From Candidatus Palauibacter australiensis (GTDB taxonomy: Bacteria; Gemmatimonadota; Gemmatimonadetes; Palauibacterales; Palauibacteraceae): 42,787 bases of DNA. Below the pieces are notes generated by a model. It was not told where the DNA came from. It ran no database searches and saw only the letters and a program-made list of their open reading frames with translations. A program made the translations under genes and the position numbers. Every line of letters begins with the position of its first letter. Positions within the stretch are counted from its first letter, which is position 1. Below, in pieces: positions 5,147 to 12,946 of the stretch. Where the stretch lies: the NCBI GenBank assembly GCA_026705295.1, contig JAPPBA010000022.1:1-42787 (forward strand). The letters run 5' to 3'.

Positions 5147-5557
5147 TTACGGATTGATGAGCGCGGCGGTCAGCACCGCGTCGCGACTCGGCTCGGCGAG
5201 GTCGATGAGCAGCGCCGGCGGGGCTTCGGCGTCCGCCGCCAGCGAACGCACCAGCCCGACCGGCGCCGCGTCCGGCTCGGCGACGAGCTCCGGCGCGTCC
5301 GGCACGGAGATGCGATACAGCAGGACGCCGGCGGCGACGAGCAGCCCGGCGGCCAGCGGCGCGAGCGCCGCGGACCAGTTTGCCGTCACGTCGAGCCAGG
5401 AAAGCGGCCGTCGCTGGAACAGCGCCTCCGCCGCCGCCATCACGTTCCGGCGCAGGCGCCGTCGCGTGAGTTCGTCGGGCCGCAGGGGCTCGAGATACTC
5501 GGCCCACGCGGGCCCGGGCCCGCCGTTCCGACCTTGATCTCTCCTATTCATCCTCAT
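5147..5557 (-). CDS. Single-pass membrane protein, putative anti-sigma factor
   Basis: The product is 136 residues: an N-terminal cytosolic part of about 65 residues, one transmembrane segment (LAPLAAGLLVAAGVLLY) and a periplasmic tail of about 50 residues. It overlaps the end of the ECF sigma gene by 14 nt, the classic position of a cognate anti-sigma factor. There is no HxxxCxxC zinc motif, so if it is an anti-sigma it is not a zinc-binding ZAS type. An internal ATG at 5551 is an alternative start two codons in. The function is inferred from topology and gene order; no domain is recognised. Confidence 0.65.
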   Translation of the reverse strand: MRMNRRDQGRNGGPGPAWAEYLEPLRPDELTRRRLRRNVMAAAEALFQRRPLSWLDVTANWSAALAPLAAGLLVAAGVLLYRISVPDAPELVAEPDAAPVGLVRSLAADAEAPPALLIDLAEPSRDAVLTAALINP

Positions 5558-6203
5558 CTGCTCCTCCGGCGCCGGGCGCCGGCGCTTCGCCGAGAAGGCG
5601 GCGCAGCGCGTGCCTGCCGTGATGAAGGTTCGCCCTCGAAGTTCCGACCGCGATCCCGAGGATCTCCGCGATCTCCGCGTGGTCGTACCCTTCGAGGTCG
5701 TACATCATGACCGCCGTTCTCTGTCGTTCCGGAAGCTGCTCGAGCGCATCGAGCACCCTTTTCCGGGCATATCTCCGCTCGAACTCCCGGTGCGGATCGT
5801 CCCGCGACGCCGCCGTGTCCTTCAGCTCCGAATGGGTCCGCAGCAACTCGCGCCGCCGGAGGTTCAGGCATGTGCTCCTCAGCACGCGATAGAACCACGG
5901 GCCGAAACGGCTTCCCGGCCGCAACTGCCCGATCCGCTCGAGCGCGCGAATGAACGCGGCCTGCACCGCGTCTTCCGCGTCCTGCTCGTGCCGCAGAATC
6001 GACAGTGCCACGGCGTAGGCCGGGTCCGTGTATCTCGTCACGAACAGGGAAAACGCCTGCGGGTCGCCGGCTTGCACGGCTTCCACGAGGCCGGGCTCGT
6101 CGGCGCCGGGATCCGGCGGCTCGACGGGTCCGGAACCGGGACCGGCTGCGTCGCCCTGCGATCCGCTGCGCGTTCGCGTTTCCTCCGCCAAAGACGTCCC
6201 CAT
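5544..6203 (-). CDS. ECF (extracytoplasmic function) RNA polymerase sigma factor
   Basis: The product is 219 residues. Region 2 is visible (YTDPAYAVALSILRHEQDAE and ARAFI-like DAVQAAFIRAL), followed by region 4 with LPERQRTAVMMYDLEGYDH and a helix-turn-helix AEIAEILGIAVGTSRANLH. An unstructured N-terminal extension of about 35 residues (rich in G, P, S) precedes region 2. It directs polymerase to a specific promoter set and is presumably held by the overlapping downstream membrane protein. The operon continues with Spy-like and TolC genes, so the regulon probably includes envelope maintenance and may be autoregulated. Divergent from the gene at 6305. Confidence 0.9.
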   Translation of the reverse strand: MGTSLAEETRTRSGSQGDAAGPGSGPVEPPDPGADEPGLVEAVQAGDPQAFSLFVTRYTDPAYAVALSILRHEQDAEDAVQAAFIRALERIGQLRPGSRFGPWFYRVLRSTCLNLRRRELLRTHSELKDTAASRDDPHREFERRYARKRVLDALEQLPERQRTAVMMYDLEGYDHAEIAEILGIAVGTSRANLHHGRHALRRLLGEAPAPGAGGADEDE

Positions 6204-6304
6204 CGCTTGGGTAACACGCCCTCGAAGCCGGCCGTTGCACCGGCTACCGTCCGCGTTCGCCCCGGCGCTTGTTCCTTCACCGTGGCCGTCGCATCTTCGG
6301 CTCC

Positions 6305-6853
6305 GTGAACAACGAAACGCAAGCCCGGCCCGCCGCCGCCGAAACGCCCGATCGAGCCCACGCTCTGGCGGGCCGAACCCTCATCCAGGAACGCATCCGC
6401 GGGATGCGAAAAGTCGTGGGGCGAAGGCTCTCGCCCGGCGACATCGTCCTCAGGAGGGCGTCTCCCGAAGTGCGGCGCCATCTGTTCGAGGAAGCGTGCG
6501 AGTTGTACTGGAACGAGATGAGCTGGGAGGAGATCACCCAGGAGGAACTCATCGGCGACGAGGAACTCACCGAGATGATCTTCCCCGGGCTGCTCGCGCT
6601 CATCGACGCGTTCCTTCCGAAGGCTCCGAACGGGGAGCCGGACCGGGACCGCGAACACCGCGACGTCGTGCACGATTTTCTGGATTGGCTGGCCGCCCGG
6701 CTCGTGACGCTGCGAGAGGCGCGACCCTCCGAGGAGGACGCGCGGGCGCGGAACCTCCGCCAGAAGAACGTGACCGACTCCCTCATCGACCTCATCGCGT
6801 TTCGCGTGTGCGCACTGACTTCCGACGAGATCGAGACCTACCAGAACGCCTGA
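6305..6853 (+). CDS. Conserved hypothetical cytosolic protein upstream of etfBA
   Basis: The frame is open from 6269, but the GTG at 6305 (VNNETQARP) is the likeliest start. The product of about 182 residues is highly charged and predicted largely helical, with no signal peptide, membrane segment or cysteine motif; it contains one Cys near EEACELYW and one near the end. I do not recognise a domain. It ends 21 nt before etfB on the same strand, so it is probably in the etf operon and may regulate or support flavin electron transfer. That link is context only. Confidence 0.65.
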   Translation: MNNETQARPAAAETPDRAHALAGRTLIQERIRGMRKVVGRRLSPGDIVLRRASPEVRRHLFEEACELYWNEMSWEEITQEELIGDEELTEMIFPGLLALIDAFLPKAPNGEPDRDREHRDVVHDFLDWLAARLVTLREARPSEEDARARNLRQKNVTDSLIDLIAFRVCALTSDEIETYQNA

Positions 6854-10919: not shown

Positions 10920-10975
10920 GAAACGACGAGGGCCGCGGGCTGCACCAGTGACCGCAAAGCGGTAGAGGTCGTCTT

Positions 10976-11566
10976 ATTCACGAAGAGAAGATCTTTCGGA
11001 TCGGGCCGGAAGGTCGGGTTCCGGACGATGAACCGAGCGACGCGGAGGTCGTGACCGCCGTATTGGAAGGCGACCGCGAGGCGTACGGGGTGCTCGTGCG
11101 CCGGTACAAGGACGTGCTGTACCGCTACGCAGAGCGCATGACCGGTCGCGCGGACGACGCCGCGGATATCGTGCAGCGCACGTTCATCCGCGGTTTTCGG
11201 AGCCTCGACCGATGCCGTGACCGGGAACGGGTAGGAGGCTGGTTGTTTCGGATCGCCGTCAACCTGTGCAAGGATCAGTTGAAGGGACGGGCACGGCGGG
11301 AGGTGTCGCTGGAGGCGGCCGGCCCCCTCACAGCGACGAGAGGGCTCCCCGAGGCGCGCGCCGAACGGGCGGAGATACGGGAGCAGATATACCGGGCCTT
11401 GCAGTCCTTGAGCGACGAGCAGCGTGAAGCCTTCGTTCTCAAGCACGTCGAGGGGTGGTCATACGAAGAGATGGCGGAGAGACTTGGAGCTTCGGTGTCC
11501 GCGTTGAAGATGCGCGTCCACCGGGCTCGGGATCAGTTACAGGTGCTGTTAGAGAACTACCGATGA
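10976..11566 (+). CDS. ECF RNA polymerase sigma factor (start uncertain)
   Basis: From the only canonical start, the GTG at 11051, the product is 171 residues but begins inside the first helix of region 2 (TAVLEGDREAYGVLVRRYKD). Family members normally have a few residues before this, like the DDEPSDAEVV encoded just upstream in frame. Extending to the ATT at 10976, preceded by AGAGG at 10964-10968, gives 196 residues. There is no ATG, GTG or TTG between the upstream in-frame stop (10949) and 11051. Region 4 is intact: LSDEQREAFVLKHVEGWSY, then EEMAERLGASVSALKMRVHR. It overlaps the anti-sigma gene by ATGA. Confidence 0.85.
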   Translation: MHEEKIFRIGPEGRVPDDEPSDAEVVTAVLEGDREAYGVLVRRYKDVLYRYAERMTGRADDAADIVQRTFIRGFRSLDRCRDRERVGGWLFRIAVNLCKDQLKGRARREVSLEAAGPLTATRGLPEARAERAEIREQIYRALQSLSDEQREAFVLKHVEGWSYEEMAERLGASVSALKMRVHRARDQLQVLLENYR

Positions 11567-12204
11567 ACGACGATCTGAAGCTGTACCTCGATGGAGAAAT
11601 CGACCGTTCGGAGCTCTCGCGGGAGCTTCGCGGGGAAGCGGCACGGTGGGATGCCCTCCTTTCGGACGTGCGGGATTCGGGGGTGCAGGGAGCTCCGGTC
11701 GGACTCGAGTCGAGGGTCATGGCCACGGTTCGACAGGAGGAGCGCCGGCCCCTGTCCGGTCTCGTCGACTGGTGGGTGCATCCCCGCTCCGTGCGCGTCC
11801 GGCCGTGGCTGGGGCTCGCGGCCGCCGCCGTGCTTGCGACGTTCTTCCTCTTGCCGCGGGAGAACGCGGTCACCGAGCCGGCGGGGGCGGCGACGGCGCT
11901 CGTGGGCGAAGAAGTCCACTACGTGCAGTTCCGTCTCGAGGCGCCCGGCGCGGCGTCGGTCCACGTCGCGGGCGACTTCAACGACTGGCAGCCGGAGGTC
12001 GCGCTGGCCGATCCGTACGGCACCGGCGTGTGGACCGGGCGGGTGAAGCTCCCGCCCGGCGTGCACAAGTACATGTTCCTCGTGGACGGCGAGACCTGGA
12101 TCACGGATCCGCACGCGGAACGGTATGTGGAGGACGGTTACGGCAACCAGAATGCCGTGATCGCCATCACGGGCGGGGCGGGCGCCCGCTCGCTGGCCCC
12201 CTAG
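11563..12204 (+). CDS. Membrane anti-sigma-like protein with periplasmic AMPK/CBM48 glycan-binding domain
   Basis: The ATG overlaps the sigma factor stop, giving 213 residues. Residues 1-75 are a charged cytosolic part (LYLDGEIDRSEL, VRQEERRP) in the position of an anti-sigma domain but without Cys or His for zinc. Residues 81-97 form one transmembrane helix. Residues 118-203 are an AMPK1-CBM/CBM48-type beta-sandwich: VQFRLEAPGAASVHVAGDFNDW, GVWTGRVKLPPGVHKYMFLVDG, then WITDP. This family binds glycogen or starch-like glucans. By topology the domain is periplasmic, so it may sense a carbohydrate or act as a structural sensor. Function is inferred from gene order and domains. Confidence 0.8.
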   Translation: MNDDLKLYLDGEIDRSELSRELRGEAARWDALLSDVRDSGVQGAPVGLESRVMATVRQEERRPLSGLVDWWVHPRSVRVRPWLGLAAAAVLATFFLLPRENAVTEPAGAATALVGEEVHYVQFRLEAPGAASVHVAGDFNDWQPEVALADPYGTGVWTGRVKLPPGVHKYMFLVDGETWITDPHAERYVEDGYGNQNAVIAITGGAGARSLAP

Positions 12205-12210
12205 TCGGCC

Positions 12211-12237
12211 AGCAGCCGTGGCAAGAGCCCCGCTGCG
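12211..12237 (+). repeat. TAGCAGCCCGTGGC repeat, copy 3
   Basis: AGCAGCCGTGGCAAGAGCCC followed by CGCTGCG, beginning 7 nt after the TAG stop of the anti-sigma gene. The GTG inside it (12218) is the start codon of the following gene. Confidence 0.6.
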
Positions 12238-12946
12238 CCGTTCTCTCGCGGTCGTGTTCCTCGGCGCGGTGCTTCTCGCGCCCGGATCGCCGGCCGCGGG
12301 TCAGGACGCGCGCGCCCGCTTCAGCCGTCATCTGGGCGCGGTCTACGCGGCACGCACCCTTTCCGTCATAGATGCGGGCGTCCGCGAGGGTCTGCCCCGA
12401 GGTCTCCTGATCGACAAGGCCATGGAGGGCGTGGCGAAGGGGATGCCTCCGGAAGTCGTCCTCGCCGCAGTCGACACTTTCGCCGCGGAGTTGCGGGATG
12501 CGGCGTCGGTCGTCGGCCCGGGGGCGGAGCCGGTCGCGCTCGAGAAAGCCGCCGATGCCCTTCGCCGCGGCGTGGGGCGCGAGCTTCTGATGCGGCTGGG
12601 ACGCGACCGACCCGATTTTCCCCTCCTCGTCGTCTCCCTCGAGGAGTTGCTGGACGCCGGCGTGGAACTGGGTCTGGCCGAGGACCTCGTGCGCTACGCA
12701 GTGGCCGAGGAGTTCGACAGCGATGCGGTGCTCCGACTGCCAGCCAGCGTGAAACTGCTCATCCGGGAGTGCAGCAATGGTCAGCCCGACTCCTGCTGGT
12801 CGCAGGCGAGCATAAGGGAGTGCGCCCGCGTGATGCCGACGCGACCGTGCCCGACGCGAACGCTCGCGGAGGCGGCCCGCTCGGCCGCGGAACGACTCCT
12901 GCTCGCCCGGTCCCCGCCTTCCGCCTTCCGATCGGCCGCAAGTTAG
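12218..12946 (+). CDS. Secreted helical protein of unknown function
   Basis: The 242-residue product begins with a signal peptide (LRRSLAVVFLGAVLLAPG, cleavage near AAG-QDA). The mature part is predicted all-helical with loosely repeated units such as GLPRGLLIDKAMEGVAKGMP and LRRGVGRELLMRLGRD. I recognise no named domain. The last 40 residues contain four cysteines (ECSNGQ, SCW, RECAR, RPCP) and are unlike the rest. The GTG start lies within repeat copy 3, 13 nt after the anti-sigma stop, so it is the third gene of the sigma/anti-sigma operon and a candidate target or modulator of that pathway. Confidence 0.65.
   Translation: MARAPLRRSLAVVFLGAVLLAPGSPAAGQDARARFSRHLGAVYAARTLSVIDAGVREGLPRGLLIDKAMEGVAKGMPPEVVLAAVDTFAAELRDAASVVGPGAEPVALEKAADALRRGVGRELLMRLGRDRPDFPLLVVSLEELLDAGVELGLAEDLVRYAVAEEFDSDAVLRLPASVKLLIRECSNGQPDSCWSQASIRECARVMPTRPCPTRTLAEAARSAAERLLLARSPPSAFRSAAS

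Follow-up and report, generated by a model that had tools for sequence, protein, structure and literature searches.

Organization of the operon

The window, which is the whole stretch of 42,787 nucleotides analysed here, belongs to a Palauibacter-like metagenome-assembled genome (Gemmatimonadota). It carries a three-gene operon with the following features.

10948..10953, + strand: predicted -35 element GTGACC of an ECF-type operon promoter (motif scan, conservation in relatives)
10970..10976, + strand: predicted -10 element CGTCTTA (same motif scans)
10976..11566, + strand: ECF sigma factor gene, 5' end uncertain (Pfam and NCBIfam sigma matches)
11563..12204, + strand: anti-sigma factor gene, 213 aa (Pfam, hydropathy, charge, alignment)
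Anti-sigma residues about 1-60, + strand: predicted N-terminal, cytoplasmic sigma-binding part
Anti-sigma residues about 79-97 (bases 11797-11853), + strand: membrane segment (hydropathy and charge)
Anti-sigma residues about 114-203 (bases 11902-12171), + strand: periplasmic AMPK/CBM48 module (Pfam, alignment)
12218..12946, + strand: P3, gene for a secreted helical-repeat protein, GTG start (AlphaFold2 model, homologue neighbourhood)
P3 residues about 1-28, + strand: predicted signal peptide of P3

As originally predicted, the ECF sigma factor gene overlaps the gene of a membrane protein with an AMPK/CBM48 domain. The two share the sequence ATGA, formed by the anti-sigma ATG (11563) and the sigma stop codon TGA (11564-11566), and both the Pfam matches and the coordinates agree with this arrangement. 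Matching operons with protein identities of 92-97% were found in Palauibacter and Gemmatimonadales records. What is read here from sequence comprises domains, topology signals, a conserved gene set, and a promoter motif with its recurrence.

Conservation of the gene set in Gemmatimonadota

The AMPK1_CBM family (PF16561) was matched in 187 of 297 sampled Gemmatimonadota genomes, and about 100 loci with their flanks were annotated by profiles built from first alignments. At the 98 loci with an anti-sigma CBM gene, P3 homologues adjoined it in 92 and sigma homologues in 87, nearby and on the same strand, the misses lying mostly at contig ends. At the 65 loci away from contig ends the counts were 64 for P3, 60 for sigma and 59 for a second CBM gene. 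Gene orders included sigma-anti-barrel-P3, sigma-anti-P3-barrel and anti-barrel-sigma-P3, and the barrel gene (the second CBM gene) could also be divergent. The recurrence of the gene set throughout the phylum shows that the operon is not a chance assembly. A failure of gene order to persist would have spoken against the original prediction; the order does vary, while sigma, anti-sigma and P3 recur together (60-64 of 65), and the prediction was not refuted. Since the order is rearranged between families and the set is kept, a joint function is indicated rather than a merely inherited order.

The ECF sigma factor

The sigma factor matches Sigma70_r2 (6.8e-17) and Sigma70_r4_2 (1.9e-18) in Pfam and exceeds the NCBIfam cut-off for TIGR02937 (sigma70-ECF); regions 2 and 4 are present and region 3 is absent. 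Its start codon could not be placed as first proposed. The ATT codon at 10976 was rejected as a start, since it overlaps the predicted -10 element. GTG at 11051 was rejected as well, being GTT or GTC in three relatives (L008, L009 and L011). No ATG, GTG or TTG start was conserved between the window and its relatives. The frame from 10976 to 11051 nevertheless looks translated, because many of the differences from L011 in that stretch are synonymous.

A further ECF-type sigma match, more distant than the first, lies in the window at 5547-6380 on the minus strand (phmmer 9e-22). In one Gemmatimonadota family, a short and likely coding ORF of about 100-130 aa resembles sigma region 2 only, region 4 being absent, and lies in divergent orientation with the sigma operon on one side and the barrel-CBM gene on the other (L067:1674-2048, L074:6128-6562, L071:1318-1809, L069:3481-3837, L066:3440-3847, L082:2441-3001).

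Promoter motif and candidate regulon

The original prediction called for a search for cognate ECF promoters, and such a motif, GTGACC-N16-CGTC, was indeed found by sequence both 5' of the operon and elsewhere. Of 96 regions upstream of the operon, 27 contained GTGAC-N17-[AC]GTC with one fixed spacing, compared with 0.2 in shuffled sequences, and 15 further regions contained a variant, GTTAC-N18-CTCTTT; motif and variant together account for no more than about 45% of these regions. The motif sits 5' of whichever operon gene is first. One of 100 upstream regions contained the canonical ECF -35 sequence GGAAC, which was set aside in favour of GTGACC. The GTGACC...CGTC motif is conserved in all Palauibacter and in L011; in ten relatives it is fixed and the sequence just 5' of GTGACC varies freely. 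Because the motif is fixed in front of the operon amid varying flanks, the operon is probably autoregulated by its own sigma factor from GTGACC-N16-CGTC. With the usual -10 spacing, transcription would start near 10983. The sequence TAGAGGT directly 5' of the -10 element is still present in G089 and L011, although the remaining spacer diverges there.

In 14 Palauibacter genomes, GTGACC-N16-CGTCTW was far commoner than the reversed control and recurred at orthologous places. Orthologous sites with diverged spacers precede a gene for a 381-aa lipoprotein, which is divergent from a superoxide dismutase-like gene, and, in 8 Palauibacter genomes, the gene of a FecR-DUF6600 protein (PF20245, 4e-19; L165:1598-3026). 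Further matches concern a small lipoprotein and a protein that is carboxypeptidase-regulatory-like and also matches a TonB plug. The order contains two other genera (G157 and G149) in which similar sites were located 5' of lipoproteins, among them one with DUF4382 and one with a YtkA-like domain, and in G157 such a site is also found directly 5' of P3. The window's genome has 27 GTGACC-N16-CGTC sites, many within genes, and these intragenic ones are probably due to chance. Envelope and lipoprotein genes are candidate targets of the sigma factor. The promoter-linked genes, collected as a short list with strict patterns, showed no carbohydrate enzyme, no glucan transporter and no glycogen gene; since the list is thus probably incomplete, this absence is weak evidence.

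Topology and putative sensor module of the anti-sigma factor

The anti-sigma factor matches AMPK1_CBM (PF16561) over residues 129-203 with an E value of 4.9e-13 and 49.5 bits against a cut-off of 26.8, and CBM_48 (1.7e-6) likewise above the Pfam cut-off. PF16561 was matched by 30 of 30 anti-sigma homologues in Pfam scans. The N-terminus has an NCBIfam anti-sigma match with E 8e-6, but at 26 bits against a cut-off of 100. An AlphaFold2 model of the protein was set aside (shallow alignment, mean pLDDT 49), and the sigma-binding fold and the CBM pocket are accordingly given as predicted.

A single hydrophobic segment (mean hydropathy 1.78) precedes the CBM. Such a segment is present in 91 of 98 homologues, with a positive-inside pattern in which the mean charge is +2.6 before it and +0.1 after it. 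These counts bear out the proposal that the CBM stands outside the cytoplasm, and speak against a family of homologues that would lack the segment and hold the module in the cytosol.

Sensor domains of anti-sigma factors are generally known to differ widely, and the CBM might accordingly be a passive plug or leftover, with the membrane segment and the cytoplasmic part doing the regulation. We consider this very improbable: in an alignment of 30 diverse anti-sigma sequences conservation is highest in the CBM, which holds all 12 invariant columns.

P3 and a fourth, putative barrel-CBM protein

The third protein was predicted to be secreted and all-helical, in agreement with its signal-peptide-like N-terminus and an AlphaFold2 model made of helices only (mean pLDDT 70.8; about 85-97 at residues 30-120). 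No Pfam or NCBIfam family was found for P3. The best PDB matches of the model in Foldseek were designed helical repeats with E values from 0.028 upwards, none below 0.02. Weak matches to T2SSF in Pfam (6 of 29 members, best 2e-4) and to GspF in the PDB (E 0.028) were rejected as an assignment and are taken as a chance resemblance of helical hairpins. Pfam gave no RseB match in P3, which is predicted to be all-helical.

The second CBM gene, present at 59 of the 65 loci away from contig ends, encodes a protein with a signal peptide, a beta-barrel-like region of about 260-290 residues and a C-terminal CBM (PF16561 in 13 of 13 members). In the barrel region, alternating hydrophobic stretches are in excess over shuffles (mean z 2.3), and a helical control scored z -0.2. 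Three members checked had a signal peptide and no inner-membrane helix. The fourth protein is thus best read as a putative outer-membrane beta-barrel bearing a periplasmic CBM. Like the promoter motif itself and the candidate targets, it did not figure in the original prediction. A second P3-like gene lies 3' of the barrel-CBM gene in L081, L103, L107, L109 and L110.

A search for the barrel-CBM protein elsewhere in the window's genome returned only the anti-sigma CBM itself. The gene is absent from this genome (genus Palauibacter) and, within the flanks, from L002-L011, so that the system can manage without it.

The occurrence of one module on proteins assigned to both membranes, kept together at these 59 loci, is what would be expected if the barrel CBM, P3 and the anti-sigma CBM formed a trans-envelope complex reporting the state of the outer membrane by protein contact. 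P3 fits such a role, being a secreted helical-repeat protein of a shape common in protein contacts, and so do the candidate targets, which are lipoproteins and envelope proteins. FecA-FecR and RseA-DegS report outer-membrane state through other folds. However, Palauibacter, L011 and some other loci keep the remainder of the system without the barrel-CBM protein, the location and fold of the barrel are themselves predicted, and a pure protein contact would have no need of the invariant stacking tryptophans described below. We hold this reading to be possible, at less than even confidence.

Does the CBM bind a glycan?

Mutation of W100, K126, W133, L146 or T148 in AMPK beta1 markedly lowers glycogen binding (PMC2642990). 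The equivalent of W100 is Trp in 98 of 98 anti-sigma CBMs and 86 of 86 barrel CBMs, and that of W133 in 87 of 98 and 76 of 86, respectively. The L146 position is Phe in 94 of the 98 anti-sigma CBMs, K126 is kept in none of the 98 and T148 in 7; N150 is retained in 81 of 98 anti-sigma CBMs and only 10 of 86 barrel CBMs. Identical AMPK glycogen contacts in the anti-sigma CBM are therefore two of the five tested, W100 and W133. Judged by these residues, the stacking platform appears to be retained and the polar contacts lost. A glycan ligand is thus plausible yet unproven, and glycogen is not established as that ligand. The aromatic contacts that the original prediction asked for are there, while the glucan reading attached to them stands only in part, given the loss of K126 and T148 and the lack of carbohydrate enzymes among the promoter-linked genes.

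An RsgI-like sensor, whose CBM binds an external or periplasmic alpha-glucan and whose sigma factor activates the use or export of that glucan, has a precedent in RsgI itself (PMC4711584). The CBM belongs to a glycogen/starch-binding clade, and anti-sigma and barrel CBMs alike retain the stacking tryptophans. In the plasmid collection the best CBM matches were stand-alone 'isoamylase early set' proteins of Vibrio and Pseudoalteromonas with 31-35% identity, one of which, on a Pseudoalteromonas replicon (L218:3959-8240), lies directly 5' of malQ and glgB and so places a relative of the CBM in an alpha-glucan setting. The genus Palauibacter also has a glycogen synthase and, in most genomes, one weak GH13-type match. 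A single weak match per genome, on the other hand, does not make Palauibacter a starch user, and the missing polar contacts and the absence of CAZyme, glucan transporter and glycogen genes from the promoter-linked list weigh against a glucan sensor as well. On balance we find it somewhat unlikely.

Proposed mechanism

We think it rather likely that the operon encodes an autoregulated ECF sigma/anti-sigma switch with a periplasmic sensor module of the CBM48/AMPK type. In the resting state the N-terminal part of the anti-sigma factor would keep the sigma factor sequestered at the inner membrane, with the C-terminal module standing in the periplasm as the sensor. The trigger could be the binding of a ligand by the CBM, most likely a glycan stacking on the conserved tryptophans, or the loss of contact between the CBM and an envelope partner, either P3 or, in most relatives, the barrel-CBM protein. 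P3 may act as such an envelope partner. The anti-sigma factor would then release the sigma factor, probably via proteolysis; no protease site for this release was identified. Once free, the sigma factor would transcribe its own operon from GTGACC-N16-CGTC, together with a few genes for surface lipoproteins and envelope proteins.

More tentatively, and with the odds somewhat against it as a whole, the outer-membrane barrel and the inner-membrane anti-sigma factor may form a trans-envelope pair, both bearing a glycogen-sensor-type module in the periplasm and signalling to the ECF sigma factor. As parts of this same joint proposal, the cue might be a shared glycan ligand or a module-to-module contact aided by P3, and the sigma factor might in this way be informed of the condition of the outer membrane, or of that of a glucan in the periplasm or at the surface.

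Comparison with known systems

Like the RsgI anti-sigma factors of Clostridium thermocellum, in which CBM ectodomains serve polysaccharide sensing (PMC4711584), the anti-sigma factor described here carries a CBM on the outer side of the membrane. SigI/RsgI also shares the order of a sigma gene followed by an overlapping anti-sigma gene and, as predicted for the operon, an autoregulated sigma promoter (PMC4711584, PMC12203970). It is the closest known kind, and a CBM-bearing anti-sigma factor is therefore not new; the fold, the sigma class and the partners differ. The sigma factor of the operon is a true ECF factor and not SigI, and Pfam scans of 30 anti-sigma homologues gave no RsgI domain (RsgI_N). 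Its CBM is of the AMPK/CBM48 type, whereas those of RsgI are CBM3, PA14 or GH10. The host is a diderm in which the module is periplasmic and has P3 and barrel-CBM partners, and the promoter-linked genes are those of envelope proteins instead of cellulosome genes.

FecI/FecR/FecA is similar in combining an ECF sigma factor and an inner-membrane anti-sigma factor with a periplasmic sensor and a nearby-encoded outer-membrane barrel, the last being predicted in our case. No FecR or STN domain was matched in the operon, only CBM families. Unlike FecA, the predicted barrel partner is small, has a C-terminal CBM, is not a TonB receptor and is missing from the window's genus. With respect to RseA/RseB, no RseB-type periplasmic regulator was found in the operon.

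The AMPK beta-subunit glycogen-binding domain (PF16561; PDB 1z0n and 2f15) shares with the module its family and the two tryptophans. Unlike that domain, the module lies outside the cytoplasm as part of an anti-sigma factor, and it also differs at the K126, T148 and L146 positions. The Vibrio and Pseudoalteromonas isoamylase-early-set proteins, in contrast, are single-domain proteins without an anti-sigma or membrane part. In a literature search that covered few subscription papers, no description of the operon was found.

The AMPK-type glycogen-sensing fold is best known from eukaryotic energy sensing, including that of humans. Here it is placed at the sensing end of a putative bacterial trans-membrane switch. 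The module occurs in nearly two thirds of the sampled genomes of Gemmatimonadota, in which envelope signalling has received little study, and the predicted promoter together with the short list of candidate targets would make both the ligand and the regulon directly testable.
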